The notes under the pieces are model-generated. The model was not told where the DNA came from. It did no database searches and saw only the letters and a list, made by a program, of their open reading frames with translations. DNA of 64,000 nt from Micrasema longulum (lineage: Eukaryota; Arthropoda; Insecta; Trichoptera; Brachycentridae). The first letter of the stretch is position 1; each line of letters begins with the position of its first letter. Both the position numbers and the translations under genes were made by a program. The DNA is taken from assembly GCA_022494885.1 (NCBI GenBank), contig JAGVSM010001389.1:62001-126000 (forward strand). The letters are read 5' to 3'. Positions 15,060-35,318 of the stretch are shown in pieces.

Positions 15060-15297
15060 ATCAGAAAAGGGCATAAATTATGGTGTGATAATTGGTATTA
15101 TTTTAATATCTCTATGCGAAAAAAACTAGTGAGCGTGGAACCGTAAGATAAATCGGAAAGCCTCAACATAATTTATAAAATTGAAAAAAGGGCAAGTAGA
15201 ATCTAAACATGTTGCTCCATTATTAGCCTTAAAATGGTGTGACAAGAGAGAGGTTCATATGGTAAAAACTGCATTATTGCACAGTGAGCCCATAATT
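15060..15297 (+). pseudogene. piggyBac-like transposase remnant, left part
   Basis: Reading through several frames gives KGHKLWCDNWYYFN, then GTVR..RK, LKKGQVESK, VAPLLALKWCDKREVHMVKT and HSEPI. This order is the late catalytic core of piggyBac transposases (D.W(Y/F)TS, CGT.R.NRKG, L.KG, W.DKR.V..L). The sequence is cut at 15297 by the element starting at 15298 and resumes at 21601. Frameshifts and a stop show that it is dead. Confidence 0.8.
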
Positions 15298-15621
15298 GAA
15301 TCGTCAAGTTGCAAAACCCGCTCTGGCCGAAATCTGTCAAATATGAGATATGAATGACATCTTTTAAAGAAAATTAAATAGCTTCCAAAACAATATTACA
15401 TGCGTAGTTAAACCCGCTCCATTCCATACGAAATACACAAAACGTTTCAAGGTTATCATCAAAACCCGCTCTGGAACAGTTAGCAAGATGCAAAAGCCGC
15501 TGTCGAAAAATCGGCCAATCAGATTTCCTTATTTCGAACAATTCAATATGGCCGTTCATACTTTGTGAGTCAACCGTGTGTGTTTTAGTCCAGCTATCAA
15601 AAGTGTTTTTTAGTGTTTAAA

Positions 15622-15725
15622 ATGGATAATTTATTGAAAAGTGTTGAAGAATCTCTTCCTGAAGCATCGAGGAAACTTTCACGCAATCCACATAGTTGGA
15701 ATCGCAATAAATTACGTGTAGAAAG
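15622..15725 (+). CDS. Element 2 transposase, exon 1
   Basis: ATG at 15622 and donor GTAAGC at 15726; 104 bases give 34 codons plus two bases. It encodes MDNLLKSVEESLPEASRKLS, then NPHSWNRNKLRVE. Length, phase and the final (N)..NW/SW..N...VER pattern match exon 1 of element 1 exactly. This makes the start and splice site credible despite the short ORF. Confidence 0.75.
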
Positions 15726-16202
15726 GTAAGCAAAGTTCATCACTTGTCAACGGCTTTTTATTGTGTTTTTCCATAGGCGGGCGATTCTTTAACCAATATG
15801 TGGTCAACTTTTTATTTTGTTGATATTTACTTTTTTTCTTAAACATTTTTTATTATTGAAAATAAAATAAGAGATATGTGTCGCCTACTTTCAAAATCCG
15901 CCAGATCCAGTTTTATCAGATAATTAAGTATTTACTCTACCGGAATGCTGACTGTGGATTTTATTGTTTAAAATACTAATATACTTGCAAACCCCTCTAG
16001 ATTTCACGTAAAAAATACTAAAAAACAGCGTTGTATTTCAAACTCCGCTAGATCCATGTAACTTGCCTTCAGACCTATATCGGCCAATCAGAGAGCGGGT
16101 ATATTTGATCACATGGTCAAAAATTAAGATGGCTTCATTGTCAGTTTGTCTCTCGTAGTAGTGTTTTGTGCTCTCTTTATTTGTGGATTTTTAGTAAAAA
16201 TA

Positions 16203-16306
16203 ATGTCTGATTTGACAAAAAATGTGCACCAAGTTCCTCCCGAGGAAGCTAGAAAACGTTTGGTTAATAAAAACAACTGGAAAAGAGAAGTGGAACGTCA
16301 GAATCG
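16203..16306 (+). CDS. Element 1 transposase, exon 1
   Basis: ATG at 16203 and donor GTGAGT at 16307; 34 codons plus two bases. It encodes MSDLTKNVHQVPPEEARKRL, then NKNNWKREVERQN. The two leftover bases CG join A of exon 2 to give Arg35. The NW(K/R)(R)...R..N(R/K) pattern is a short basic segment also seen in element 2 and, more divergently, in element 3 (GWKKN.NREN). Confidence 0.82.
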
Positions 16307-16470
16307 GTGAGTCAAAAATTGCTTGTTATTTATATACAGCATGTTCCTCCTTTAGAATAATTACCAACATGGCGTTTTCTTAATAAAAACTTTATTAGGG
16401 ATTTAAAAAAAAATTAAACTAACAAAACTTTTAACTGAAGCAAAACATTGAACAATCAATCTTTTTTCAG

Positions 16471-18175
16471 ATATTCATCGAAACAGTTACCTAGCCTGCC
16501 AAAGTGTAAACACGCAAATAATAACACATTTAAATGTTTAACTGTTTCTATGCAAGAAGTATCCAGAATGCATCGCAATTTTTATAAATCTGCCAATAAA
16601 ATTGATCAGGATAATTATATATTACAGCATTGCCGTACCAAACAATGTAAAAGAGTTCGGCTAAAATCTGGAACCAGAGGCCCTAAAACCATGAGTGTTG
16701 ATTATTACATTACAATCATTAATCCGCGCAAGCAATTAAGAATATGCAAAACTGCCTTTTTGCAAATATTAAATGTTGGTAAAGATAGGGTAACTGGCGT
16801 GTTACAACGCTCTTTTAATGAAACAGGGAGCCTGGCAAAAGAAAAAAGGGGAGGAGACAGAAAAAGGAATATTTTTATCCAAAGACATCGTAGCGTTCAC
16901 ACATTTATCGAGTCTTTGCAAGCAGTTGAACCACATTATTGCCGTACTAAGTCATTAGTAAGATTATATTTACCGCCAGAGCTAAGCATTCGCAAATTGT
17001 GGACTATGTTTAACGAAGTAAACCATGATTTACAAGTTAAACAGTCATTTTTTAGGAAGATTTTTAATAGAAAATATAATGTTGGTTTTGGGTCACCCTT
17101 AAAAGACACCTGCTCTCGTTGTTCTGAATTGAGCATCAGAATTAAAAGTGAGACTGATGTGACAATTAAACAAGAACTGATCACTCAAAAAAGAATCCAC
17201 TCACTAAAAGCAAAAGCTTTTTATGATATGCTGAGAAATAATGAGGACGAAGTTGTAACCATATCGTTTGATTGCCAAAAAAACAATCCATTGCCAAAAC
17301 TTCCAGACCAAGCTGCCTACTTTAGCAGGCAAATTAACTTGTTTAATTTTACTGCTGTTGTTGGAACTTCTAAAAGCTGTCTGGACAATGTTCACACATA
17401 TTATTGGAGTGAAACCGATAACCCAAAGGCATCAAATCAAATTTCAAGCGCTGTATTTCATTTATTATCAACAATTGAAATAAGTAATAATAAAAGAATA
17501 ATAAGACTTTTTGCAGACGGCTGCGGCGGACAAAACAAAAATAGTACACTTATTGGCATGTGCAGTAAATGGCTCCAATCTTATGCGCCACCGCAAATCA
17601 CAAATTTAGAAATTATTTTTCCTATGGTCGGACACTCTTTCTTACCACCTGATAGAGTGTTTGCCCAAATTGAAAAGGAAACGAAAAAAATGTCAATTAT
17701 TTGTGATCCTCAAATATATGTTGATATATTCAGAAAACATGGAAAGGTTTATCATCTTACAGAAGACGTTAATGTTTACAATTGGAAAGATGAAACTTCT
17801 AGAGCATTTAAGCCACCAGGATCTTGGCATTTCAAATTCAACCAAACTAAAAGATTTTTACTGAAACGTGGAAGACAAAATGTGAGCGTGCAAGGAGAAG
17901 AAAATTACAAGCATGACTTTTGTCAACCAAAGTATGTCAATAAAAAAGGAAAAACTTGTAGTGAATTAGAGCCTTCAATATTAAGAAGGGGAAATAAAAT
18001 TACACCAGTAAAAATTAAGGACGTAATTACATTGCTGACCAAGCACTATGGCGAAGATTGGCGTAATCAACCATCTTTACAGTTCTATAAGAACGTTGAA
18101 CAAACGAACGAAAACTTCGCACAACATGAAGATATAGAATGCGTCCCGTTAGTGGAAACTGAAAATTTTGTATAA
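16471..18175 (+). CDS. Element 1 transposase, exon 2 (DUF7869-like core), intact
   Basis: Acceptor TTTTTTCAG ends at 16470 and TAA is at 18173-18175. With exon 1 the product is 602 residues. The N-terminus has a Cys/His cluster (KCKH...FKC), followed by a basic region, PHYCR, and a C..C pair (DTCSRCSEL). An RNase H-like core follows: FDCQKN (Asp302), FADGCGGQNKN (Asp384) and GHSFLPPDRVFAQIEKE (Asp429 and Glu436). These acidic residues fall in the order expected for a DDE/D transposase; the assignment is inference. The C-terminus has TKHYGEDWR. I recall such proteins as common 'uncharacterized' arthropod paralogues labelled DUF7869. The ends of the element argue that it is the transposase. Confidence 0.92.
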
Positions 18176-19244
18176 AGTTGTATACTAATGTAAAACTTGT
18201 TTTTGTATGTGTTACTACATAATATTTTTAATTTTACCTAGAAATGTGTGTATATTACCTTTGCTTTTAGATTATTATGGTTAATATTGTATACCTTACC
18301 CATATTCTTTGATAAAATATTGTGTACTTTTATTTTGCTAATTAAATACATTGATACCTACTAAATTTTTCTTGTTATTTTGATGACACAAATAATTTTG
18401 GAGCAACCTGTATAGCCGAAATGACAATGATTGACAAATTTTAAGTTACTTGCGAAATCCGCCAGATCCTTGACTGTGATTAACAAAACCCGCCAGATCC
18501 AAAAGTGAATATCAATATCCGCTACATCCACATATATTTTTTAATTAACACATCTTTATTTTAAATACTGAAGAATTTTCGAGAAGAAAAAGGCAAAATT
18601 CTTAATTTCAAATTACTGTATTTTAAGATAGACAAATCTTTAAAACATAAATGTTACCCAGAGAATTTTGCATTTTTTGTAAAATCGACTTATATGGATC
18701 TGGCGGATTTTGAAGGTAGGCGACACATATTAAGTCAAATTCAAAACCAAATAATTTTTCAAAGTTAATAGTTAATAGTTTGGTAAAATCAGAGATTAAA
18801 TAATTTTATGTGAAAAATGACAAATAATGGGTTTTATTTACGAAAACTTTTTAAATCATAACTGCTTTTAAACTGCCTTTGTCTATTTAATCATGAAAAT
18901 GATACCTTAACAATGGCAATACAATGTGTCATAAAAATGTCAGTTTTTAATGTTTTGCTTTGTACATAGAGGACACACGGTCATACTGAGCTATCTCCAT
19001 TTTTGACATAATTGAATAATTTCATTGGTTTGAACCAATTGTCAAATAACAAGAAAATGGTTACCAGCGAAATTATTTAAAAAAACTTTAATTGTGATTG
19101 ATTTATAATGTAGCAGTAAATGTAGGTATAGGTAGACACTTCTTACATACTTCGCATGTTATATAGATATATGGAAGATTTGAGTAAAAGTAGTAACTCC
19201 TTAAAATAACCGAAAGCACTACCTACTTTATTTTTATTTTTCAG

Positions 19245-20965
19245 ATATTCTTCTAAAAAATTACCTGAATATCCAAAATGCAAGCACGACTCAAAACAGT
19301 TCAAATGTATAGAATTGAGAGGAAAAGACATTCAAACATTTCATTCGGCATTTTACAGTACAACTGTTAAATTAGAGCAGGATGCATTTATACTCAAATA
19401 TTGTCGTGGAACTGCTGTATCCAATCACAAAAATAAGGATAGAAAAAATAATATTACCATAAAATATGTTGTGCGTAAATATAAAACTGGCGAGCTGATA
19501 CCAGTTTGCCAGAAAACGTTTATGGGGATTCTCCATATAAAAAAAGATAGGATACAAGGGGCTGTTAAAAGAAATCTTTCAAACAATGGCGAACGTATTA
19601 AAGAGCATAGAGGAGGTGATAGATGTAGTGTGAAATTTGATGCAAAGCGTGAGAGTGTGAAAAGTTTCATCAAGAGTTTAAAAGGAAGTGAACCTCATTA
19701 CTGTAGAAGTAAAACGCACAGTAGGATATATTTATCATCGGACCTTAACATTAAAAAGCTCTGGAGAATGTACAACAAAACATTGACAACAACCCCGGAA
19801 TTGCAAGTAAAAGAAAAATATTTTAGGGATATTTTTAATACCAAATTCAATTTATCTTTTGGTTCTCCAATGTCTGACAAATGCTCTACATGCAGTCAAC
19901 TTCAGGAGGATATAAAAAAGTGCACTGATGATCAAGAAAAAAATAAACTTATAACAACGTCCAGACTTCACCGTTTGAAATACAAAGCATTCTATTCTAT
20001 TTTGCGTTGCGATGATCCAAATGTAGTTACAATGAGTTTCGACTGCCAAAAAAATCTTTGTTTGCCTAAATTACCAGATCAATTAGCTTATTTCAGTCGA
20101 CAGTGGAGCATGTACCATTTTTGTAAAGTTGTAGGAAACTCAAAAGCCTCACTCACACCGGACAATGTATTCAGTTATGTCCGGAACGAAACTGTGTTGC
20201 AGAAGGGATCCAACGAGATTTCTTCTGCAGTTTACCATAGGCTTGTGAATACAAATTTTGATTCCTCCATTAACACAGTACGCCTTGTAGCAGACGGCTG
20301 CGGGGGTCAAAATAAAAACACCTCTGATGTGCATGTTACTGAAATGGTTTTCCTGCGCCCCTTCAAATATTGCATCCATAGAAGTTATATTTCCTGTTGT
20401 GGGACACTCTTTCATCCCACCAGATATGGTATTCGCGCGAGTTGAAAAGGTTATAAAAAAACTGGAAAATATTTCTGATCCCGAAAACTACAAAACAATA
20501 TTAAAAGATCATGGCACAGTTTTCAATCTCGGAGAAGAAATACAAGTTTTAGACTGGAGAAAAGAGGCAGGAGTAAATTTAAAGTCACCCGGAAACTGGC
20601 CTTTTAAATTCAACCAAACTAAACGATTTATATTCAATAAAACAAATAGTGGGAAAATCAAATTAAGAGGGGAAATCAGTTACAGAGCAGACACTTCAAC
20701 GGCTGCTTCTGTTACGAAAAAGAATGCCTCCATAACATCGATCAACCCAGGTTTGGTTACTGTAGGGAGCCGACCTTTAAATAGAGACAAAATCAAAGAT
20801 GTCAATAATCTTTTAACAAAACACTATGGTGAAAATTGGCGAGAAAATGAACCATTAAGGTTTTACAAAAACCTAGAATGTCGCCAACACGAAGTGCAAG
20901 TTCAAGATGACACTGATCTTCCCTTATGTGAAGAAAGGGAAAATGAAGTTGCGTGTTGCGTCTGA
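19245..20965 (+). pseudogene. Element 2 transposase, exon 2, one frameshift
   Basis: Acceptor TTTTTCAG ends at 19244, completing AGA and then YSSKKLPEYPKCKH. It is similar to element 1 along its length: HYCRSKTHSRIYL, then FDCQKNLCLPKLPDQLAYFS, ADGCGGQNKN, GHSFIPPDMVFARVEK, and a C-terminal HYGENWRE. The frame changes once at about 20318-20327, between GGQNKNTS and MCMLLKW. Exon length is exactly one base over a whole reading frame, so a single-base insertion explains it. Expected product about 607 residues. Whether this is a real mutation or a sequencing error cannot be told here. Confidence 0.88.
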
Positions 20966-21600
20966 CTTATGACCGAAATTGATTATTTTGAAGGGGATAT
21001 ATACATTTTTTTAAATTAAAGAATTTCGTTTTTTTTTGGAAAATTCCCGTTTATTTTTTATCATAAATGTACATTTATATGTATGTGTTGTAACGTTTCT
21101 TAATTTTCTTTGGTTTTTGTAAGGCAGTTTTAAAAATATTCTTAGAAAAGTTATATTTTTCAGTTCAATTTTATTTTTCATTAATATGTAACAATTTACA
21201 TATTTACGAATTGCTTTTCTTGTAAATGTAACTATTTTTAATACTAATTATTATCAATGTCAATAAATGATTCATTGAGCCGCCCCTGACTTTTAATGTT
21301 TACTGTCCCGATTACAAGTAAGTAGCAAATGCCGCTCCGTTTGAAGAAAAGAGTAGCAAAACCCCCTAAGGAAGACGGCGGGTGTCAAAACCCGCTACGG
21401 TGCAACTTCTAAGGTTAATATTTAATTATTCCTTGCATTTGCTGTAGTTTATCAACTACCTACTTCTTATTTCAGCAATACATGAAAGTCAATGACATTT
21501 TGAATACTCGATTAGCGTTTATTTACATTTCTAAAAGTTTTTGTCGATTTGCTCGAAACAACAAAACTCTTCCAGAGCGGATTTTGCAACTTGACGATTC

Positions 21601-22096
21601 AATTAAGCTAAAATGCATAAAAATTATTATAAATGTATGGGAACAGCGGATAAAGCTGATTTGATCCTCAGTAGTGTAACATGTATGAGAAAATCCTTAA
21701 AAATGGTACAAAAAGGTATCATTTCATTTCATAGATTTGTATTTATTAAATTATTTTTATTTAATTAAATCAGTAACTGGCAAAACAATAACATTTCCAG
21801 ATTTTCAAGAAAACATTACAATGCAACTATTAGCGAAATATAAAATACCAATCATTGGGACACCACATCCCCCGATAAAGGATCACATTCCTGAGTTGAT
21901 TCCGCCGAACCTTAAAAACAAAATGCGGCGAAGACGTCATGTTTGTGGAAACACAAAATTAAAACCAAGAAAACTAAAATTAACTCGATACTTTTGCTCT
22001 TCATGTAATGTAGGATTAAGTCTTAAACCCTGTTATAAAATATACCACACATGTGCGAAATTTGAAGTTCGTTCCATCAATAAACGTCGATTTCAC
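21601..22096 (+). pseudogene. piggyBac-like transposase remnant, right part with Cys-rich C-terminus
   Basis: Resumes directly after element 2: KLKCI, then YYKCMGTADKADLILS, MRKSLKMVQKGIISF, TGKTITFPDF, IPPNLKNKMRRRRHVCG and the C-terminal CSSCNVGLSLKPCYKIYHT zinc-binding segment. The order (NKYMG.VD.AD, then LKWWKK, then C..C.VGLC..PCF..YHT) is diagnostic for piggyBac. Small frameshifts near 21622 and 21770. No TTAA-bounded ends were identified. Confidence 0.85.
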
Positions 22097-22737
22097 CTCA
22101 TAAAATTTTATTATCATGTTTTAAAGAACATGTAAAATGTAAAAAAAAAAAAAAAAACATAAAATAATCGGTAAAACCCATCTTAATAAAAGCGTCCTTG
22201 TACAAACAAAAAATACCTTAGATATGTTTTGTTAATGGGAGCAAACCTTTAACAACTTTCAAAAATTCTTTTTTTTCCTCTTATTCTAGGGCCTTACTTA
22301 TTACATTTCCTTATACCAGGTTTACATTAAGAAATATCTATACCCGATTTGACTATTTATAACTGATGTAAAAAAAAGCTTACTTATAAAAACATTTATT
22401 ACCTGAAATACAATTCACAGGTTATTTTCATGCTTCATTTTTTTAAACAGTCAACACTGATATGTTTTATTGCGCATGCACAGTAACTTTTATAACAAAC
22501 ATCAAAGTCAAATCGAGACTACTGTCAGCGTAACGGAGAAAAAGAAATCAAAATTGGGAAGAAAAGGAGAAGGTAAAAATGAGTTCTTTAGTTTATTTGT
22601 GTTTCTTTTTTTATCACAATTAATTAAAATACATACAAACCTATAACATTTTAGACATTATTAAAACAAATTATTAAAAGGACTTATCTTCCAATGCAAT
22701 GGAAACCGTTTACGTTTAAAATATTTAAAATTTTCAG

Positions 22738-22960
22738 ATTTAACGCTCTTAATTCAAAGGCAAGAGACGCTACTCAACTAAAATCACAGTGGAAAGTATT
22801 GAAAATGGGGGCTTAAAAACGGATTGAAGAACATAGGCGTCGACTCTTTGCCACTGGGGGTGGACCCAAGGTTTCAAGTCCATCCCATGATGACTTGATT
22901 ATGGTGGATTTGTTGTCCCTGGAATTTGCAACGGATTTCAATGAATATGACAGCAACGCC
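22738..22960 (+). pseudogene. Myb/SANT-like DNA-binding domain remnant
   Basis: After a TTTTCAG acceptor-like site the frame reads FNALNSKARDATQLKSQWKV, then LKMGA, a stop, and KRIEEHRRRLFATGGGP. This is typical of the Myb/SANT-like proteins that accompany Harbinger-type transposons (FN......R...QL...W..LK..A......E.....TGGG). One in-frame stop shows that it is decayed. It could be the partner gene of the DDE remnant at 24.9-26.0 kb, but ends that would prove this were not found. Confidence 0.6.
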
Positions 22961-22995
22961 ATATTTTTTTTTTTATAAAAGAAACATTAGCGCTC

Positions 22996-23153
22996 TTTAA
23001 TTTGCCCAAATATTTCAATTTTGGTGGCCATTTTCAAACGAGTTGTAAATAACTCACTATTAGAAAATGGAAAGCAAGTTGGGGTAGAGTGCGGCTCGAA
23101 CCTCGGACCTCTGATCCGGTAGTCCGCAACGCTAGCCACGGGACCACAACCCG
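22996..23153 (-). mobile_element. SINE family 1
   Basis: Full-length minus-strand copy: CGGGTTGTGGTCCCGTGGCTAGCG head, GGTTCGAGCCGC B-box, body with CTAATAGTGAGTTATTTACAACTCG and CCACCAAAATTGAAATATTTGGGC end. Confidence 0.85.
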
Positions 23154-23899
23154 ACTAACATTTAACAATGTATGTAGAAGAAACATTACTTTTATTTTTC
23201 TCTATATTTCCATTACTTCCCTGCATGTATACTTTTGTTATTTGTCTTTCAGAGTACACTACCATTTCCTAATATCAATCCTGCTTCTGTGCCAAGTGAG
23301 GTGAATACATTATCGTGTGGTTTTCTTCATGGTTCTTTAAAAGTACAATATATTGAGTATACTGGAAAGAGGAAAAATTTAAATATTAAATATTTACAGA
23401 GTTACCGTAATACTAGCGAGACAGGTAACCGGAGCGACGTTTCTTTCACAATACCTTTCTTCAATAATCCTTTCGTCTCATCAGTTTTGGCAGAACATTG
23501 ACTGTATTTAAAGCGGAAATACCATTACATTTTATTGGTAGGACATTATAGGTATAACTGCAGGTATACAAAATGCACGTTGTCCGAGCGTTAAGAGTCA
23601 GTTTAGGTGGGAAGTTTGTTGTGTGCGATTGATTTTAAAAAACTAAAATGCCGAACTATCCTAAAAGAACACGAGATAACATCGCTTGAAAATATTCTAA
23701 AAAAAGACATTATTTAGTGCCGTCTCTTATCCAGAATATGTTTATGTGGGATAGCATCTCCCTTCCGGCCGGCGCTACCTAGTTCCTATGCGCTTTTTAA
23801 TATCGTCTTTTTTCTATGGCAACCCTTTTTGTCTCTTAAGTTGGTATTACAGCTGTCACTGGCAGGGGAATATTGTTCCTTTGTTTCAATTGACATCGA

Positions 23900-24400
23900 A
23901 TTTCCATCTCGAACACTGTGGAATCCTTGGCAACGAAAAGGCTCGGGAATCTACGCTCAAGAAGACAGCCCCCGATTTTGCCGATTTTCCGCTCAGCTTT
24001 GCCAAAAGGAAAATAAGAAGCAGAACCCTTCAACTCTAGAACGATCATTATTTAAGTGAACCTACCGGAAGTATAACTAAAATGTTTTTCCCTACCATTT
24101 TCCATGCTTATGATTTCAGGAGAATGCAGAATGCTGGCTACGAGCTCACCCAGATGCCTTTGAGTCATGGTGGGTTTAATGAGCTACCTGCATCGCTTCA
24201 AGCTCTCAGAGATTGACAGCTGCCCATGAGACGATCAAACTCCTCAAGATGTCCCTCACCTGTTGATGCATTGCCCCCTTTTCAGCTTTCAAAGACAACA
24301 GCTGGAGGCGGGATGCAGAAGTCAGTGGAAAGAGTTACAGCATCCTACCCGCGAGGTAAAGAAAGAACCGCGAGGTAGTGTAATTGCTACATGGTTAATA
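23900..24400 (+). pseudogene. LINE ORF2 remnant (RNase H and zinc-knuckle tail)
   Basis: Plus-strand frames give HCGILGNEKARESTLKK and DFADFPLSFAKRKI, the end of an RNase H domain (HCGI.GNE.AD). After 24100 they give YLHRFKLSEIDSCPC, then HLLMHCPLFS and QLEAGCRSQWKELQ (HR.K...S..C.C....T..H.L..CP). The frame shifts several times. 3' flanking sequence up to about 24870 probably belongs to the same dead copy. Confidence 0.6.
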
Positions 24401-24914
24401 TAGTGCAGGCAATTGGTAAAATAAACCAAAGTAGGGAAGAAAATGCCGAACACTCCTCTAGTGGAACGGAAGGCCTGTTGACTACTGCCATCTCAAAGGA
24501 TGATTAAGAGGTTGTCCATACAATTGGATAATCTTCAAAATTTTATCTTTCGAGATAGGAGAACCGCCTCACGCACTCCTTTGATTATCGGCGTTACTGA
24601 GGACGTTGAAATGGTTTCTCAGTCATGAAGGTCTACATGGTGGATCCGGGGTTCAAGGAGTTGTAATTCAGCTCGGAGCTGGCAGCCTTAGACCCTACGT
24701 CGTCCCAGTTAGCCTCCATAGACCGTGCATTGGCTGCTATCACCTACGTTGTTCTAAAGGAAAGAGAACTCGTGCAGTCCTCATTGCAAGAGTAAATTAA
24801 CTGGGGCTACGATGAGGAAACGCCTCTGACCCCTGAGACTGCAGATGAAGATCTTGGATCTCTTTGGGGGACAGTGTTAGTGTTTACCCTATACGAGTTC
24901 ATCGTATTCTGTAC

Positions 24915-26020
24915 CACAAGTGTCAGTGTCACCGTTATCGTTACCATGTACCAAGGTGCCTCGTGTGTTCTCTGTGTCACCCCCAGCTTGCACCGTTACA
25001 CCCGAGCCTTTACCCAGTGCGAGTACATCATATTCTGTACCACAATTGCTCTCTATGTCAGTGTCGCAATGTACCAATATACCTATGCCTTTAAGCCAGC
25101 ATAATAAAGGAATTCAAGTTGGTTTGCACAAAATGCCTACAATTAAAAGCAAATCGACTTCAACTTGTTTGGAGTACAAGACAATTTGCTCACCTATAAA
25201 AAAAAGATCAAAATTAAATTTTGTAAAGAAGATTCTACATCGGTCTCTGCTGTGCCTGATGAAGAAAACATTTCAGATATGTCCATTAAATATAGTTTAG
25301 GTTTTGAAGATCAAATCAACTTGACTTCATGTAACATGAGGGAAAAATTTTGATTTTAAAACTAAATCCTAAATTATGTTTAGGATTACCTAAAAATATG
25401 TACCACCTCATAGAATATAATATAACTTCCAAAGTAAATTGCGACGCTTTGGCTATTATGATTACTCTAAAAAAAATTAAACTTAATGAGTCTTATGCTA
25501 TTCTTGCTCTTCAATTTTGGATGTCGATAAGTACAGTAGGTCAGATATTCACAGCAACGGCGAAAATTCTAGCTCCTTGCTTAAAAGAAATGATTTGTTG
25601 GCTATCTGCTGAGAAAATTAGGTACAAAATACCTATTTCATTCATATCAAGATATTTAAAAGTTCAATAAATTGTCGATTGCTTCGAAATACAAATTGAT
25701 AAACCGTCAGATCCTACAAATCAAACGTTCACTTGGTCTGAGTATAAACATACAAGTACTCTTAAATACCTTTTATCTGCACTCCTGACGGATTGATAAA
25801 TTTTATTTCTTGCGGATATGGTGGACGTGCAACGGACACTGACATAGTTGAAAATAGTGGATATATTAGTCATTTGCAGCCAGGTACTCACATAATGGGT
25901 GACAGAGGATTTAAAAACATATCCAAACTTCTGGAAAGCAAGCAATGCCAGCTCGTGGGACCGCCCAGCGTATCTGCAGGAGTTCAGTGTACACCCCGGG
26001 AAGTGCAGTGCTCATAGGCT
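24915..26020 (+). pseudogene. DDE-superfamily (DDE_Tnp_4-like) transposase remnant
   Basis: Four frames in order: a Ser/Pro/Thr-rich N-terminal part (VSPPACTVTPEPLPSASTS), a helix region (AILALQFWMSISTVGQIF), then IVDCFEIQIDKPSDPTNQTF with WSEYKHTSTLKYLL, then NFISCGYGGRATDTDIVENS and HIMGDRGFKN. This matches Harbinger/IS5-like DDE_Tnp_4 proteins (I.DC.E....P......T.S.YK...T.K.L, then GG..SD...........DRGF). Stops and a frameshift near 25793 disable it. Confidence 0.75.
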
Positions 26021-26035
26021 ACTACTCTGGCAAGG

Positions 26036-26330
26036 TGATTGATTTAGTTGTAAAAAGCAGTTAATGCCAAGTTTGTACATGCTGGAAAAATAAGACTTAT
26101 ACTGAAGAATATCGTAAATGGTTTGAGTATCACGAAAAAGAATGCACAAAGAACCACGAGGGCGTCTTGGGAAAAATGAAGGTTGATGCTATGAAAGAAA
26201 TGCTTTCGACATCAGAAGACAAGTTCGCTGTGAAATATGGAAATTATATAGGTGATGGGGATTCAAAAACTTTCAAGGCCATTCTAGAATTGAATTCTTA
26301 TGGTGATGAGTTGACTGTTATAAAAAGTGA
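26036..26330 (+). pseudogene. Mutator-like transposase fragment
   Basis: The frame reads CQVCTCWKNKTYTEEYRKW, then CTKNHEGVLGKMKVDAMKEM, then VKYGNYIGDGDSKTFKAIL. The NH.G..GKME.DA...MF.RS and GDGDSKTF motifs are characteristic of the Mutator-like transposase-type proteins found in insects and cnidarians. Both ends are cut: the DDE remnant lies 5' and a LINE fragment 3'. Confidence 0.65.
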
Positions 26331-27000
26331 GTGGCTAATGATATAAGATATAAACAATTGTCATCTGACAAAAATCGTGTGTCTCAATGCATCCAAACCG
26401 TCAACTACTGGATGTCATCAAACAGACTCAAACTCAATCCATCTAAAACTGAGCTTCTATTGACAGCGACAAAAAAGCGACAACACCTTTTAGACCGATC
26501 TCCAATTTCAATCACAGGTTGTGATCTTACCCCTAGTGTAAATGTTAAACTACTGGGTGTTCATTTAGATTCAGATCTTTCTCTTCATACTCAGGTCAAT
26601 AAAATGGTAAGTGCTGGGTTCTTCCATCTCCGACAGATCAAATCCGTGCGGAGAAATATTCCTAAAGATGCAATTAAAGTTCTTGTAAATGCTTATATCG
26701 TTTCGCGTCTAGATCACTGTAATGGAATATACGCAAATCTCCCAAAATATCAAACTAATAAACTTCAATTCAATGCAGCAGCAAGGCTTATTACGGGCTT
26801 ATTAAAAAATATTCTCACATCTCACAACATCTTAGAGATTTGCACTGGTTAAAAAGCCCAGAGAGAATAAAATACAAGCTTAGGCTGGACAGTATTCAAA
26901 TCCCTTCATGAAATGGCTCCAAATACCTATCGGTCTTTTGTATTAGGGAAAATACATATCAAAGAAAATCTACTCTTAGGTCAGCATTTGCTGAGCACTT
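26331..27000 (+). pseudogene. L2/CR1-like LINE reverse transcriptase fragment
   Basis: The ORF 26331-26852 begins after the YADD box and reads VNYWMSSNRLKLNPSKTELL, then VKLLGVHLDSDLSLHTQVNK and LVNAYIVSRLDHCNGIYANL. These are thumb-domain motifs of L2-type LINE RTs (WM..N.LKLN..KTE, LGV.LD..L....H). It continues in broken frame to about 27000. The downstream block at 55125-55520 is the same family. Confidence 0.75.
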
Positions 27001-27595
27001 ACTTTGCATTTCTTTCTGTTGGGATCCAAACCCGTCTCCTTAGTTCCTTTTCACCGCATGGCCACATGGCTTCTCCATAATTTTTGGTCTTCTCACGGAT
27101 CAACCATCTCCTTTAAAAATACAGTCCACTTTCCGCATAATGTTATATTTTATTTTCTTATGAAAGATAGAAAAATATCATATTCTATAACATTTCATTC
27201 GCCGTCATACCTACACAAACGATTCACACAAGGAAGGAACCATTCTGAACCCCTTCAATCGCAAAGCAAAGTTGCTTGATTATACCCTTTTCACAGATTA
27301 TTCTGAAAAGCAAAGTCTTATATATGAATCAATCAGACCAGGCAGAGCGACGGGTAATTCTGTTGTCACAGATTTGTGCGTAATCAATTAAAATCCTGCT
27401 GCCTTTGTATTATATAAATTTATACATTTAAAGGCGATCCAGGGGCTTTGTGACACCAGACAACCCGCAATCCTCAAACTTAAAAGTGAGGGAGCACGTC
27501 GGCATCAGTCGGATAGAAGCCTCAGATGACCGCGTGATATTTCTTCAGGGCAGTCGCTTTAAAACCAACTGTGTCAGTGGGAGAAGTTAGACCCT
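27001..27595. other. Unassigned transposon-derived stretch
   Basis: Contains FTDYSEKQSLIYESIRPGRA with NSVVTDLCVIN in one frame, which resembles the tail of transposon-encoded proteins (GR....VVTDL), but it is too short to name. No other gene seen. Confidence 0.3.
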
Positions 27596-27599
27596 CTAC

Positions 27600-28050
27600 A
27601 GGTTATTCTGGAGGTCTTACGCGGGTAGAGGATCTCCTTAAGGGGAAAAGGCGAATCCTTCCCCATCATTTGTCTCCAGAATGTTTCTGGTACCCAAATC
27701 CAACGGGACTACAAGACCTGTCTTAAACCTAAAAGGTTTAAACCAATTCGTGGAAGCAGGAGTGTTCAGCCTGATAAATGTATGGCAGATTCCTTCGGCC
27801 AGTTCTTACAACCAGAAGACTGGATGATAAAAGTGGATCTATCGCAGGCATACTTTCATATTCCAGTAAGCCCTTCTCTTCGAAGGTTTCTGGGTTTGGT
27901 TTATAAGAGACAATTGTACCAGATGAGACGCTTACCATTGGGCCTAAGCTCGGCCCCAAAGATATTTGCGACAGTGAAAAACTGGATAGTACTTTCGAAA
28001 AGAGATTTCGAGTGGTCGTATGCCTGGACGACTTCTTCTTAGTAAATCAA
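27600..28050 (+). pseudogene. DIRS-like retrotransposon reverse transcriptase fragment
   Basis: Frames give [20 protein letters not shown], then [37 protein letters not shown] and RVVVCLDDFFL. The order (P.VNLK.LN, then W....DLS.AYFH.P, then PFGLS.AP..F, then V.YLDD) is that of DIRS/PAT-type RTs, with the catalytic pair as LDD. Three frames are needed, so it is inactive. Confidence 0.65.
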
Positions 28051-28074
28051 TGCCTGTAATGACTTTAAGGTGGA

Positions 28075-28205
28075 AGAGTATTGTCCCTAAATGATGTCGA
28101 ACCATTTCTCAAGGGTTCCCGGTTTGATATGTTGTCCCAAAATACCGCCTCAAATATTTTGTTATTTGTAATGTTATTTTGGTAAAATAAATTAATTTGA
28201 ATTTG
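28075..28205 (+). mobile_element. LINE 3' UTR copy
   Basis: Same 3' terminal sequence as 3355-3482 (ATGATGTCGAACCATTTCTC, GGTTTGATATG, ATTTGTTATTTGTAATG, final AATTTGAATTTG). Confidence 0.6.
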
Positions 28206-28449
28206 GACCAAATGATAATTTTAGGCAAATCAATGAGGAAACAGTCACATTAACATTTAAGTGTCAAAAAAAAACAAGTATGAACAAAAGTTTCAGGCTG
28301 CATATTACAGCGGGCAAATTTAAATTTATAATTTTGCAATTGGACAATATGTGTCATTAAACAAATTTAAAAAGAAAATGATTTCCTATATCGTCGGTGT
28401 AGCGCAAGAAGTCATCAAGTAACATTTTTGGTAAAACTGAGTTAGAAGT

Positions 28450-28835
28450 CAATATGGGTTATTTTTTATGCAAACAATGAGAGCAAGAAGTCATCAATAC
28501 GTTTTTTGCCATAGAACGGCTGTTTTGTGGATGAAAAAAGTCATTAATGTTATAAAATGTTATTTTAAAAAAAAAAGAAATCATCAGGTTACTTAATGAC
28601 ATTTTATTTTCTTTTCAGTATACTTGGGTACATACTCCAACCTTTTTCACCAAAAGTCATTAACTGATTTTAGTGATTTCTTGCACAAATTCCGTTCGCA
28701 CTAAAAGTCATTAACTGATTTTAGTGATTTCTGGCACAAAATTCTGTATGACAAGTGCTTACTCCCTACTTTGCGTCAGAAGTAATCAACCGATTTTAAT
28801 GATTTCTGGCAACACTTTCTTACAACATGAAGTGA
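28450..28835 (+). repeat. Subterminal degenerate repeats of element 3
   Basis: The word AGTCATTAA or a close variant recurs at about 28470, 28538, 28652, 28700 and 28780. The two central units (about 28650-28740) share AAAAGTCATTAACTGATTTT followed by AGTGATTTCT. The word also lies in the terminal inverted repeat (AGAAGTCATTAAGT), as expected for repeated transposase binding sites. Confidence 0.7.
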
Positions 28836-28954
28836 GCAATAAATGATTTCTTGCTTCATCTGTCAGTTGTCATTTTGAGTCCGCCAGTTTAGTAGCACGT
28901 TGGGAGAGCTGTTTTAATCAGTGTTTTAACCTGTTTCTTGTGGAATTCTTCCAA

Positions 28955-29050
28955 ATGACCTTAAATATGAACAGTTTTCGTGCCGGACGCGGGAAAAATA
29001 TGATTTTAGCGGTGATTAATGAAAACCTGCAAAGCAATGATAGAATTTCG
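28955..29050 (+). CDS. Element 3 transposase, exon 1
   Basis: ATG at 28955, 32 codons, donor GTAAG at 29051, phase 0. It encodes MTLNMNSFRAGRGKNMILAV, then NENLQSNDRIS. The alternative in-frame Met at residue 5 cannot be excluded. Confidence 0.65.
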
Positions 29051-29136
29051 GTAAGATTTCTAACCTCACTTTATTGTCTTATAATAAATTGGTTTACGTT
29101 TACACTATTTAACTATGCTTGTATAATCTTCTACAG

Positions 29137-29268
29137 GGCACAAATAAGGACTGTACAATTGAGGATAATGATAATTTACACTTTGATGGGCAGTCTATTG
29201 AGCCATCAACGTCTGCAACTGCACTGCAATATGATTTGTCAGTGCTTGAAAAGGATTTATATATTACA
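29137..29268 (+). CDS. Element 3 transposase, exon 2
   Basis: Acceptor TTCTACAG ends at 29136 and donor GTAAGG starts at 29269; 44 codons, phase 0 at both ends. It encodes an acidic, polar segment (DCTIEDNDNLHFDG) that ends LSVLEKDLYIT. No domain recognised. Support comes from consistent splice sites and an open frame. Confidence 0.6.
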
Positions 29269-29377
29269 GTAAGGTTTAGACTTTAAAAATTTGAAATGAA
29301 ATAAGTACTTGTGTTTAACACGACGTATTATTAGTAGTAGGTAGTCCTGATAATAACTAATCCATTTATTTTTATAG

Positions 29378-31439
29378 GATGATGATGATAGTGTTAAGGA
29401 CCCAGATTGGCAAAATAGCAGTACATCTGAAAAAAATAATGACGCGCCAATTAACGCAGGTAAGAAAAAAAGGAAAACTACACGGTGGTATCAAGAGAAT
29501 AAAGAAGGTTGGAAAAAAATACTAACCGTGAAAATAAGTTTAAATGCTTGCCATACAAAAACTACAAAGGAGTTGCAAAACCTGCCAAGGCTCCGAAACC
29601 CATTCACTGTACTTGTCGTTATAAATGTTCCGACAATTTCTTGGAGGATGATAGAGTTGAAATTTGTCAAGTATATTGGGGAATGGCAGATTATTGCAGA
29701 CAAAAGGATTATATTTTACGCCACGTCATAAAACAAGAGCCAAAGCGGCGCCTATGGGGAGGGATTTCTGGCAAACATCGTACAAGCACATACGCTTATT
29801 TTTTTGAAAAAAATACTGAGAAGATAAGGGTTTGCAAACCTTTTTTTTGAACGCACTCTTAATATTAGCAATGGACCTATTAATAAAGCCTTTGAGGGGA
29901 TGGGAACTCATGGTACATTTCAAGAAAAAGACAATCGTGGGGCCCACCGCCCACATAATAAAACATTTGATGCTGATATAGAAATAGTGAAACAACACAT
30001 TAGTAAATTTCCTACAATGGAATCTCATTATTGTAGGAAATCATCGCCACTACAATATCTAGACAGGAAATTGTCTATTCAAAAAATGTACGAGCTGTAT
30101 TTGCAAGAATGTAAAACACTTATTAGGAACCCTGTGTCGCAATACGTTTATCGGCAAGTTTTTGGAAAATCTTTTAATTTGTCTTTTTATAAACCCAAAA
30201 AGGACCAATGTTTAGCATGTTACAAATACGACCAAGCAAAACAATCAACTGAATGTGCCAATTTTTCCAATATAAAGCTAGAATATGATGCTCATATTGA
30301 GAGGAAAAACAAAAGTTACATATCAAAAGATATTGACAAAAAGAGGGCAAATGAGGATAATACGTTCCGCACGATCATTATTGATTTACAAAGCATTTTG
30401 CAGATCCCTAGTGGTGATGTATCACTTTTGTATTATGTCAGAAAGTTGACACTTTATAATGTCACAATATATGGAGGTCAGCTTCCAAACGATGCATACT
30501 GCTATATTTGGACTGAGTTAAATGGGAAAAAAGGAAGTAACGAGATTGGTACAGCTCTTTCAAAATGGATTGAGACGCTACCGAATTATGTAAAAGAAAT
30601 CAGCATATTTTCTGATACATGCGGCGGCCAAAACCGCAATCAACATATATCAGCACTATTTCTATACCTTACACAAAAAACTCACTTAGACATTGTGGAA
30701 CAAAAATATTTAGAGTCGGGTCACTCCTTCATGGAGGCAGATAGTATGCATAGTGCCATCGAAGAACAACACAAATATATGCCAGCTAATTCCGTCACAG
30801 ATTGGAAAAACATTATGCGTATGGCCAGATCCAATCGTAAGCGTCGTGACATAAAGCCATATGAGGTCGAAGAAATGTCTTTCAAAGACATTTTGGACTT
30901 AAAAGATTTATCTTCCACAATAATAAAAAATCGATCTGTTGACAATGACGGGAAAATAGTTGCTTGGCTCAAAATCAAGTGTCTCCGATACGAGAAGTTA
31001 TCGCCAAATATAATAAAATATAGGTATGACTATGAAGGCAACTATTCAATACTGGATGTTAGCCTGTCTGATGAGAGGCAAAAAGAACTCTTGGAAACAA
31101 GAAAAAGGGCAGAAAAAGAATTAGAGGAAAGTAATCCCCACTTAATAATATCTGAGAAAGCAGTTAGATCCACAATCCAGACAATCTAAAAGAAGAAAGA
31201 TTGAAAATAATGATGCCAGTAGTGTTGAAAACCCTAATAATGTTAATTATAAAACTTATAAGGTAAAAAGGGTGTATAAACGCCCTATCCCGATCACAGA
31301 TGCGAAGAAAAAAGATTTATTGAAATTGTGTCGGGGTGGCGTTATTCCTTGTGAGTTGCATGCGTGGTTTGAGGCATTTCCAAGCACAAGTGGTAAAGAC
31401 TTTATACCGGAACCTATTGAGGAAGAATGTGAAGAATAA
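29378..31439 (+). pseudogene. Element 3 transposase, exon 3, three single-base indels
   Basis: Acceptor TTTATAG ends at 29377; the frame opens DDDDSVKDPDWQ. Features in order: GWKK/N.NREN basic helix, HCTCRYKCSD, ESHYCRKSSPLQYL, FNLSFYKPKKDQCLACYKYD, IIIDLQS, IFSDTCGGQNRN, GHSFMEADSMHSAIEE, then after 31160 SRQSKRRKIE and ITDAKKKDLLKLCRGGVIPC before TAA at 31437-31439. Frame changes occur at an A-run (about 29513-29519, one base short), a T-run (29841-29848, one base long) and an AAA (about 31156, one base long). The net of one extra base matches the exon length (2062), so all three are accounted for. Expected product about 762 residues. Homopolymer position suggests possible sequencing error. 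Confidence 0.88.
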
Positions 31440-31464
31440 AATTACACTGATTGCCATAAAACTT

Positions 31465-31820
31465 TTTGTTTATTCAGACGTGTCCTCTTTTTGTTTGTGT
31501 TTTGTAATAATTATAAGAACTCATGTTGAGATTATTGTGTCAAGACAATAAAACTTATTGTTTATTCAGAAGTGTCCCCTTTTTGTTTGTGTTTTGTAAT
31601 TATTATTCGAACTCATGTTGAGATTATTGTGTCAAGACAATAAAACTTATTGTTTATTCACCAGTGTCCTCTTTTTGTTTGTGTTTTGTAATAATTATTC
31701 GAACTCATGTTGAGATTATTGTGTCAAGACAATAAAACTTATTGTTAATTCACCAGTGTCCTCTTTTTGTTTGTGTTTTGTAATAATTATTCAAACTCAT
31801 GTTGAGATTATTGTGTCAAG
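31465..31820 (+). repeat. Tandem repeat, about four units of 90-94 bp, after the element 3 gene
   Basis: The marker GTGTCC starts at 31480, 31574, 31664 and 31756. Each unit holds TTTTTGTTTGTGTTTTGTAA, ACTCATGTTGAGATTATTG and a CAATAAAACTTATTG near-palindrome with AATAAA. The fourth unit is partial. The copies are highly similar, so the expansion is recent. Confidence 0.9.
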
Positions 31821-32338
31821 TATTTATGTCATTAGAAGCCACCGAATGTGTTTTTTCAAAAATATTTTTAAGATAAATAAAAACAAAACAAAAACTTATG
31901 ATATTTTATTATTGACGACTAGGAATGAACTTTTTACTGCTACAATTCTTACCATTTCATGAAATAATTATTTCGTTTCCAGAACTAATGAATTTTGCCA
32001 GAAGTCATCAAAATATATTTTTTGGATTTTCTTATCATAAATAAAAACAAAAAAATAATAATTTATGTGCAAATAATACTTATTTGCATATTAATTAATT
32101 AATTTAAAAAATTAAGCTAATATCTTTCTATTTTACATAATTATTGCAGATTTAAGGCATAGAAACTTTGGAAGCGATTTGCCAAAAAACGTGAATTTGT
32201 TACTTAATGACTTCTTGCGCTACACCGACGATATCATTCAAAGGGAGCAAATGAAATTGAGTATAGTTTTTTTTATTGTCTTAATGAAATCAATTAAAAA
32301 AACCATACAACCACAATACGCCTCGTAGCAGTGCTTAG

Positions 32339-32698
32339 CTTGCAGTTCTCCCTAGTGTATCAGTGTCTCCTTCCAAAGATTGGAAGACTGTTAAAAACAA
32401 AGGGCGTGTCGTCGTTCGGGGTACCCTGGGAAAGCGGAGGGAAGAGGATAATAAGTTTTATCACTTCTATCTGTTCTATAAGGACACTACGAGCGACGAT
32501 TTGACCTCATTGGTGAGTACCGCCTCATTTCATGTGACAAAGATCGAATCGCGGGGTGACTACTCGTCATTTAAAATCGGAATTACGAAAAATGCTGTAG
32601 ATGTAGTTTTGCAAAGCGAAAATAGGCCGCGAAAATCGTATATTAAAGAGTGGGATGCAAAACCGCAAGATGCGCCGCGACTTCCCTCAGTAAAGTGA
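32339..32698 (+). pseudogene. Jockey-type LINE ORF1, C-terminal part
   Basis: Frame reads SVSPSKDWKTVKNKGRVVVR, then a globular segment (DDLTSLVSTASFHVTKIESR, SFKIGITK) and a stop at 32698. This resembles the C-terminal domain of LINE ORF1 proteins, followed at once by the ORF2 endonuclease start. The 5' part is missing. Confidence 0.55.
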
Positions 32699-32719
32699 CT
32701 AGATCGCGATAATATAACA

Positions 32720-35318
32720 GATGATAAACTGAATTTTTATTATATGAATATTTGCAAGTTGAAAACGAAACGCGAAGATTTTTATAAAAGTGTTTCGGCC
32801 TGTGACCTTGACGTTATAACATTAACCGAAACTTGTTTGAACGATGGCATTTTCGACTCTGAATTATTTGATAGTAATTTTACAGTAGTAAGGCGAGATC
32901 GTGGTGGCCACAGGCAGGGTGGGGGGTGTTTATTGGCTGTGAGAAATAGAAAGAACTTGCAAGTCGAGTGTTTTTCTGTTTTGGAAACGTCGTCTCTGGG
33001 TAAAACTGACATACGATCTCGATATTACGTTCATTTGTGTATTGTATTTCCCTCCGACGAGTGAGACAAATATATATCAACTGTTCTTCGACAGGGTATT
33101 ATCCAGTTTAGAGCTACTTCGGGACATAAGTGTCATTATATTGAGGGACTTTAACCTGCAATCAGCAAAAAACATTAAAAGTATAGAGGCTCACCTCACT
33201 TTTTTGTGCTCAGTGTTGGGCCTTTCGCAGTATAATAATATTTTGAACTCTAGGGGTAGAACATTGGACTTAATATTTAGTAGAAGAGTTATTGGTGTGT
33301 TTCGGTCATTATCACCTCTTACGAGAGAAGATAACTTTCACCCCGCACTTGAATTTTTTTACAATCTGATTGCAGATCGCCCCCGTCGATCCAGACTTCC
33401 CGCGGAGGGTACGGTTAGTCAAAGATGATGGAATTTTCATAAAGGCAACTTTGACCGACTGTACTCTCTCACGGACGGTATCGACTGGGGCGAGATGTAT
33501 AAAATATCAGATATAAATGAAGCGGTACAGTGTTTTTATTGTATTGTTGAAGGTGTATTTGATTCCTGCTTCCCTAGAAAATCTCAGGCTACTGGTGGGA
33601 GGCGATATCTAGGGATATTGTTAGAAACATACAGACTAAGCATTTCTATCATAAAAAGTGGAAAGCTTCTGGCTGTCGCGGTGATTATGAGATGTTTGGG
33701 TGTTACAGATCTGTCGTAAGACGTAGCATTCGATTGGCGTACCGGGAGTTCATTTCCAACATGAAAAGCAACATTTTTCATGATCCGAATACCTTTTGGG
33801 ACTATATAAGGTCACAAAAGGCGGATGGTGGGAATGTTGACTCCATGACATGGGGTGAAAAATTGGTTCAGGGTGCAAACATAGCTGAGGCGTTTGCAGG
33901 TCATTTCAAAACAGTATATAGCAATGATCCTCCGCTTCTGGATGTTAATATTGCTAAGCAATGTTCACAGACCGGTGCACAGTTTATTGATGTTCAAAAT
34001 ATCAATGAGAAGGATATGGCCGACACTATTAAAAAATGAAGTAATACTAATTCTCTCGGACCTGATTTCATTCCGACATTCTTCCTAAAAGGTTGTGTGG
34101 AACTGATCAAAATACCAGTCTGTTTTTTGTATAATTTTGAAACATGGAAGACGTCAAAAGTAACACCTATACATAAAAGTGGATCTAAGTCATCAGTAGA
34201 AAATTACAGACCTGTAGCTGTTCTTTCTGCACCAGCGAAGGTATTTGAAATTATCATATGTAGAATCGTCACTTCCCGAGTAGAGCCATTTATTATTGAT
34301 GAACAACATGGGTTCAGGAAAGGCCGCTCGGTTGAAACCAATCTAATGGTTTTTACAAACTACGTCACGGAAGCTCTGGATGCAGGACATCAGGTAGACT
34401 GTTCATATAATGATTTCGCCAAGGCCTTTGATACTGTCGACCATGATGTCTTATTAAATAAGCTGTATGAGATCGGTTTCTCGGGTGGTATGTTAAAATT
34501 AATGGCGAGCTACCTCCAAAACAGAAACCAATACGCCTCCTACGGTTTATTCGCGTCAGAGTGTTTCCATACTTTCTCGAGTGTCCCGCAAGGCTCTAAC
34601 CTGGGTCCATTGTTGTTCTCAATTTTCATTAATAATATTTAAAATGTAATTTTGAACTCGCGTTTTCTGTTGTTTGCGGATGACTTAAAACTATTCTTAA
34701 AGATTTTCGTCTTCTCCAAGCAGATATATCTAATATATCTGAACAGGGAAGGCGAAACAAACTTAGGTTTAGTGTTTCCAAGTGTTAGGTCACGTCCTTC
34801 ACTAGGGCCCAAAAAACTATTTTTTTTCGCTACAAAATGAATAACCAGAATCTGATATGAACATCAAATGTTAAGGATCTGGGCGTTAGATTTGTGAGCA
34901 CTCTGACATTTCATGAACACATAGAGACAATCAGTGGTAATGCGTTGAAGATGTTAGGATTTGTTCTGCGTACTGCCAGGGTTTTCGAAAATACCCGCGT
35001 ACTAAGAACTCTTTACAACTCCTTGGTGCTAAGTAGACTCGAGAGTGGCTCGATGATTTGGGGGCCACATGAACTGAAGTACTCTCTTATGATAGAGAAA
35101 ATCCAAAAGAAGTTTCTGAAATATCTCTACATGAGAGAGTGCGGGTATTATCCTTGGCTCTACCCGACCGAATTTCTCCAGGGTATGCTTGGCTACAACA
35201 GTTTAGAGACTAGAAGGAATGTGTATTTGACTACGCATTGGTTTGTATATTTTAATATGCTAATATGTCTTCTTGCCCATACTGATCATCGTGGTTTCGG
35301 ATGTGACAGGGTTTAAAG
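32720..35318 (+). pseudogene. Jockey-type LINE ORF2 (endonuclease and reverse transcriptase), decayed
   Basis: An apurinic endonuclease domain is visible: YMNICKLKTKREDF, LDVITLTETCLN, then an ILRDFNL box in which the usual Gly of GDFN is Arg. Then a linker with FRSLSPLTREDNF-like SDH relic and an RT domain with KVTPIHKSG, NYRPVAVLS, HGFRKGRSVETNL, DFAKAFDTVDH, SVPQGSNLGPLLF and LLFADDLKLF (the FADD active site survives). The thumb follows with LVLSRLESGSMIWGPHE and a stop at about 35316. At least six frame changes or stops make it inactive. It starts just downstream of the element 3 insertion. No target duplication seen. Confidence 0.85.

Follow-up and report, generated by a model that had tools for sequence, protein, structure and literature searches.

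The window analysed here (64,000 nt of DNA from Micrasema longulum, whose genome assembly comprises 584 Mb) holds three elements that each carry a gene of the DUF7869 type between terminal inverted repeats (TIRs) (Table 1). A preliminary description of this DNA had given them TIRs matching at 28/29, 31/32 and 32/33 positions and identical flanks ATAT, AATT and ATAT; both were confirmed from the sequence, and an inverted-repeat search recovered all three end pairs.

Table 1. Positions in the window of the elements, their ends and genes, and unoccupied relatives of target sites
Feature	Position	Strand	Remarks
Element 1	15878..18726	+	2849 bp; inside element 2 intron
Element 1 5' TIR	15878..15909	+	31/32 identical to 3' TIR
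Element 1 3' TIR	18695..18726	-	31/32 pair
Element 1 target duplication ATAT, left	15874..15877	.	within element 2 intron
Element 1 target duplication ATAT, right	18727..18730	.	
Element 1 transposase exon 1	16203..16306	+	
Element 1 transposase exon 2	16471..18175	+	intact; RNase H core with D302, D384, D429 (predicted)
Element 2	15298..21600	+	3450 bp minus nested element 1 and one duplication copy
Element 2 5' TIR	15298..15326	+	28/29 identical to 3' TIR
Element 2 3' TIR	21572..21600	-	28/29 pair
Element 2 target duplication AATT, left	15294..15297	.	
Element 2 target duplication AATT, right	21601..21604	.	
Element 2 transposase exon 1	15622..15725	+	GT donor directly after; continues at 19245
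Element 2 transposase exon 2	19245..20965	+	frameshift near 20320; frames 19245-20445 and 20327-20965
Element 3	28392..32230	+	3839 bp
Element 3 5' TIR	28392..28424	+	32/33 identical to 3' TIR
Element 3 3' TIR	32198..32230	-	32/33 pair
Element 3 target duplication ATAT, left	28388..28391	.	
Element 3 target duplication ATAT, right	32231..32234	.	
Element 3 transposase gene	29509..31189	+	split: frames 29509-29850, 29900-31189
Unoccupied relative of target of element 1 copy L006	24175..24288	+	79% over 114 bp
Unoccupied relative of target of F534 copy L034	35249..35332	+	93% over 85 bp

The two exons of the element 1 gene, separated by a GT-AG intron of 164 bp, encode 602 residues; the Amyelois protein P0003, also of 602 residues, has a similar N-terminus and the same exon join. 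The core motifs said to be shared by the three gene copies are present, in element 1 with D302 in FDCQ, D384 in DGCGGQNKN and D429/E436 in GHSFLPPDRVFAQIE, but as genes the copies are unequal, that of element 2 being frameshifted and that of element 3 split. A second copy of element 3 (L027, contig C2533) has an open frame of 643 codons, and frames of the DUF7869 family here generally run to about 530-670 codons.

Since exon 1 of element 2 ends at a GT donor and its exon 2 starts after an AG acceptor, element 1 lies in the intron of element 2, which measures 3519 bp with element 1 inside and 666 bp without it. Element 1 is thus nested in an intron of its own distant relative, with the splice sites left intact.

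Copies, families and target sites

Eight copies of element 1 with both ends occur in the genome, and those outside the window, seven in number, are 98.9-99.8% identical to the window copy; beyond these and the contig-cut copy L009, its TIR (at most 3 mismatches) was found at one further end only (C86). One further copy of element 3 was seen (C2533, flanks ATAT/ATAT), and the TIR of element 2 matched its own two ends only. Six more families, whose names give a frame length or a contig, occur in the same genome (Table 2). The eight elements measured span 2849-4033 bp, some F664 copies being longer, with TIRs of 29-33 bp in the window and about 20-39 bp over all families. The elements have recently spread in multiple copies.

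Table 2. Families of DUF7869-type elements in the genome
Family	TIR	Identical 4-bp flanks	Copies with differing flanks (left/right)	PF25273 matches assigned
Element 1		7/8	C802 ATAT/ATAC	9
Element 3		2/2		2
F603	CGTCGCCTCGGG	4/4		
F534	GAATACCAG	19/21	C934 ATAT/AATA; C3369 CTAT/ATAT	26
F664	CGCTCCTTTAA	5/9	C1280 AATT/ATAT; C5031 GTAT/AAAG; C2484 ATGT/ATTT; C3290 ATAC/ATAT	10
F452	CGTCGTCAACGGG	7/8	C322 ATAT/ATAC	
C1176	GTGACTTATAG			1
F592 (members C1411 and C4486)	CTGTACC			2

The relation to DUF7869 held against the Pfam model itself (PF25273, curated cut-off 26 bits), over which the proteins of element 1 (31.1 bits) and element 3 (32.1 bits) scored, as did those of F534, F664, C1411, C1176 and L027. 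The two frames of element 2 and F603 gave no match to PF25273. As F603 is without a Pfam match and F452 scores below the cut-off (20.2 bits), the Pfam entry covers only part of the family.

Over the whole genome PF25273 gave 72 matches above the cut-off, and in 14 control genomes none. By match pattern 50 of the 72 were assigned to TIR-bearing families, which agrees with the earlier claim that the paralogues called "uncharacterized" are transposon-encoded; at least one TIR was read for 46. With a TIR beside 46/72 matches and duplicated flanks in 44/52 copies (see below), it is not the case that most genomic DUF7869 copies lack TIRs and duplications, the finding that the preliminary description had named as contrary to its proposal. 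Of the remaining 22 matches, 21 (all but C789) have open frames of fewer than 245 codons, and 10 hold stops.

Three observations concern single loci. TIR scans of L015 and L018, with flanks limited to 1500 bp, found nothing convincing. At L043 (C441) a broken DUF7869-like frame with 9 stops lies between 32/32 inverted repeats (CCCCCAGTTTTAGAC...) lacking a 4-bp duplication. Within the F592 element of C1411, positions 351-1042 of L093 form a palindromic stretch of about 690 bp that is self-complementary at 94%.

Over the six multi-copy families, the 4-bp flanks were identical in 44 of 52 both-ended copies (Table 2). When the right flanks were shuffled 20,000 times, identical pairs numbered 13.6 on average (maximum 22) for pooled copies and 19.2 (maximum 31) within families. 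Twenty of the 44 identical pairs are non-palindromic and hence count as direct duplications, not as an extension of the inverted repeats. In three families (F603, F534 and F452) the edge of the element was initially placed where between-copy identity ends, further copies being read at the TIR, and flank agreement is therefore an independent test in these families. The F664 copies C2484 (L085) and C3182 (L107, ATGT/ATGT) have the left flank in common and different right flanks; their left flanks are thus not independent, and one of the two may be rearranged or their contigs may overlap.

Outside the 52 stand, with one end read, L009 and L037 (both at contig ends), C2681 and C4062 (the second end being absent from its expected place) and C1411, and also C457, C4603, C1466 and C5123. 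Element 2 (AATT/AATT), C1176 (AAAT/AAAT, from a scan in which matching flanks were a requirement) and C4486 (TAAT/ATAT) were likewise counted apart; with them the figure is 46/55.

The identical pairs fit ANNT in 42/44 and four bases of A or T (W4) in 32/44. Of the 4-bp W4 duplications described earlier, the short duplications are confirmed and W4 is too strict; the target duplications are biased towards AWWT.

For 20 insertions, 200 bp of each flank were joined with one copy of the duplication kept and compared with the collected DNA. Two of the 20 matched an unoccupied relative, both in the window and with no gap at the junction (Table 1); the junction bases are a single ATAT in the relative of the L034 target and ACCT versus ATTT in that of the L006 target. 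The other 18 joined flanks found no unoccupied relative in the DNA compared, and for the insertion of element 1 into element 2, 500 bp of adjoining intron matched itself only.

The relative of the L034 target overlaps the end of frames that, by translations read by eye, resemble a non-LTR (long terminal repeat) retrotransposon (32363-35316) and begin some 130 bp beyond element 3. Four 92-bp tandem units, 95% alike, lie at 31456-31820, downstream of the gene of element 3.

Words repeated inside the ends were said to occur in the TIRs as well. TIR-derived 11-mers (at most 2 mismatches) were counted in the 616 bp inside each TIR of eight families, with expected counts from first-order Markov null sequences, not exact shuffles. 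In gene sense there were 31 on the 5' side and 22 on the 3' side (expected 9.2 and 7.7), and in the opposite direction 14 and 7 (expected 9.0 and 8.7); over the eight families, gene-sense copies are thus above chance at both ends. Despite the inversion of the TIRs, the arrays tend to keep one orientation at the two ends and so run against the 3' TIR. The direction is not uniform, F664 adding little and element 3, F452 and C1176 being mixed on the 5' side. Examples of such arrays lie at 15910-16530 and 18080-18694 of the window.

The predicted core and its acidic residues

AlphaFold (AF2) models of two divergent members, with predicted local distance difference test (pLDDT) scores of 89 and 87, have a canonical RNase H core, and among the VIA-align matches listed all 50 for each model are retroviral integrases, Mos1, Metnase/SETMAR or IstA. 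In both models acids 1 and 2 lie where strands 1 and 4 end, and acid 3 lies on the helix past strand 5. The predicted fold thus has the RNase H order with the acids at the expected strands and helix; judged by this order, it does not speak against a transposase, as a fold with unclustered acids would have done. By sequence, the best PDB hit had an E value of 1.1 and was unrelated, and NCBIfam gave no match for two proteins.

D302, D384 and D429 are nearly invariant, with spacings of 82 and 45 residues, and E436 is conserved too (alignments A1 and A4). Of the triad proposed in the preliminary description (Asp302, Asp384 and Asp429 or Glu436), the predicted core with its conserved acids stands; for the third residue D429 fits better than E436, judging by its modelled position on the helix. 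On the helix that follows strand 5, both models place the Asp at the third residue, about 10-12 residues beyond the strand, and the Glu at the tenth; we take the model position of D429 to be close to E152 of human immunodeficiency virus 1 (HIV-1) integrase. That E436 should be the third catalytic residue (DDE instead of DDD) is doubtful, although several points weigh for it: Glu is the usual third residue of DDE enzymes, E436 is present in 74/74 sequences of A1 and 67/67 of A4, and D429 is replaced by Glu in one A4 sequence. In protein P0207, on the other hand, Asp replaces E436. In the VIA-align rows that start at or just before strand 1, residue 260 of one model corresponds to integrase 57 and residue 213 of the other to 58; provided that strand 1 is ungapped, D302 falls on integrase D64.

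A nearly invariant set H155/C214/C217/H243 (positions in the 567-residue protein of exon 2) may bind zinc beside the core.

A probable cut-and-paste transposase

We propose that cut-and-paste DNA transposons, 2.8-4.0 kb long in wholly resolved copies, very probably have the DUF7869-type proteins as their transposases. This reading, already that of the preliminary description, is supported by the element anatomy with its TIRs, the duplications, two unoccupied sites, the predicted RNase H-like core and the three conserved acids. We infer DNA binding, excision, staggered strand transfer and zinc binding for the DUF7869 protein: it would bind the TIRs and the repeated subterminal words and pair the two element ends; D302, D384 and D429 (DDD) would hold metal; the element would be cut out and its 3' ends joined to the target strands with a 4-bp offset at sites resembling AWWT; and repair by the host would create the 4-bp duplication.

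A duplication of 4 bp is, with high probability, the better reading than one of 2 bp. A true length of 2 bp, with TIRs beginning with T and ending with A and A-NN-T merely a target motif, is improbable, even if four observations tell against 4 bp: each of the 42/44 pairs of the form ANNT can also be read as 2 bp between A and T; the middle two bases agree in 48/52 copies versus all four in 44; C802 of element 1, C3369 of F534 and C322 of F452 differ at an outer base only, as 2 bp allows; and all exact F534 TIR ends in the genome are preceded by T and no other base. The flanks AGAT, ATGT, ACAT, ACTT and AAGT are compatible with both lengths. In F603 C1913 (TAGA/TAGA) and F664 C180 (TTTT/TTTT), however, other bases stand in place of the inner T and A while the two flanks remain identical at all four positions, which favours 4 bp because 2 bp would need matching mutations in the TIR ends. 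F603 C4062 has ATAA at the single end read, and Sola2, the best-fitting known group, is reported with 4-bp AWWT duplications (PMC3627910; here and below, published groups are described from excerpts of the papers cited).

That the proteins are passengers or host genes on elements moved by another enzyme, as transposons can carry passengers (e.g., Fanzor1 in Sola2 elements, PMC3627910), is extremely improbable: the predicted core has the fold and acids of a transposase, wherever the longest frame of an element copy was listed it was that of the DUF7869 gene, and a TIR was seen beside 46/72 genomic matches.

Two homologue searches gave 459 and 311 matches, many among the best 120 of each being named "uncharacterized" or "DUF7869 domain-containing"; the named ones among these belong, as we take it, mostly to moths, butterflies and beetles, and also to true bugs, a katydid and a limpet. 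P0241 matches part of P0236, a DUF7869 protein, at 72% identity and bears Pfam PF04236, presumably the Tc5 transposase C-terminal domain, which hints at a domain fusion. The Pfam DUF7869 model appears to begin past the first catalytic Asp, which suggests why the function was missed. Judged within the open-access literature, where no paper names DUF7869 and none of those listed for its motif strings or for Sola plus DUF was relevant, the link between DUF7869 and transposases appears to be unpublished. Recognising proteins catalogued as of unknown function as transposases would let genome projects mask them; the genome offers copies that are nearly identical and keep open frames, suited to ordinary transposition assays; and the AWWT-biased duplication together with the integrase-like core opens the mechanism to direct testing.

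Relation to Sola and other known systems

The predicted core resembles that of retroviral integrases (HIV-1, simian immunodeficiency virus, Rous sarcoma virus) in its RNase H order, some rows extending into the integrase N-terminal domain; it differs in that no PDB sequence matches and that it belongs here to a DNA transposon with TIRs and acid spacings of 82 and 45. Mariner duplicates TA (PMC10741241), unlike the elements described here, whose matched flanks ACTT, AAGT and TAGA set them apart from Mos1 and Metnase (Tc1-mariner); Tc1/mariner as a whole was ruled out by these and by AGAT, ATTT and others without a central TA. Kolobok (PMC9587614) and piggyBac, both targeting TTAA, share 4-bp duplications and DDD/E transposases with the present elements and were ruled out because TTAA occurs in 0/44 identical flank pairs.

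Sola elements have a DDD transposase, 4-bp duplications, a size of 2-9 kb and TIRs of 11-1124 bp (PMC10741241). The sizes found here (2849-4033 bp) and the window TIRs (29-33 bp) fall within these ranges, and 44/52 flank pairs are identical over 4 bp, the 2-bp reading keeping the small probability given above. In Sola2 the 4-bp duplications are AWWT-biased (ATAT, AAAT and ATTT in Polysphondylium; PMC3627910). Moth elements called Sola were found joined to baculovirus DNA (PMC4735498); viral contigs held no relative of the elements described here.

That these elements stand apart from Sola, as a superfamily yet uncatalogued, is unlikely. Two points weigh for it: Sola is reported from bacteria (PMC10741241), whereas two pattern scans of bacterial and archaeal genomes (113 and 62 pattern matches) gave no relative by tblastn, with a reach limited to close relatives; and in the open-access literature no paper names DUF7869, those with its motif strings not being on transposons by title. 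A profile search with eight divergent members scored 7995 candidates and returned 4 proteins, giving no link to dictyostelid Sola2. In the excerpt of PMC3627910, Sola2 TIRs are 12, 13 or 21 bp long and the Dictyostelium transposase has 888 amino acids, versus TIRs of about 20-39 bp and frames of about 530-670 codons here. Less probable still is that DUF7869 marks a distinct uncatalogued superfamily in which one-directional subterminal arrays distinguish the two ends; if true, such arrays, running with the 5' TIR and the gene at both ends and so against the 3' TIR, would give end pairing a direction.

Compared by published description alone, the AT-rich, AWWT-biased 4-bp duplications, TIRs of tens of base pairs, a size within 2-9 kb and the likely DDD core fit Sola and Sola2 (PMC3627910, PMC10741241), and the group described here would probably belong to Sola, of the Sola2 type.

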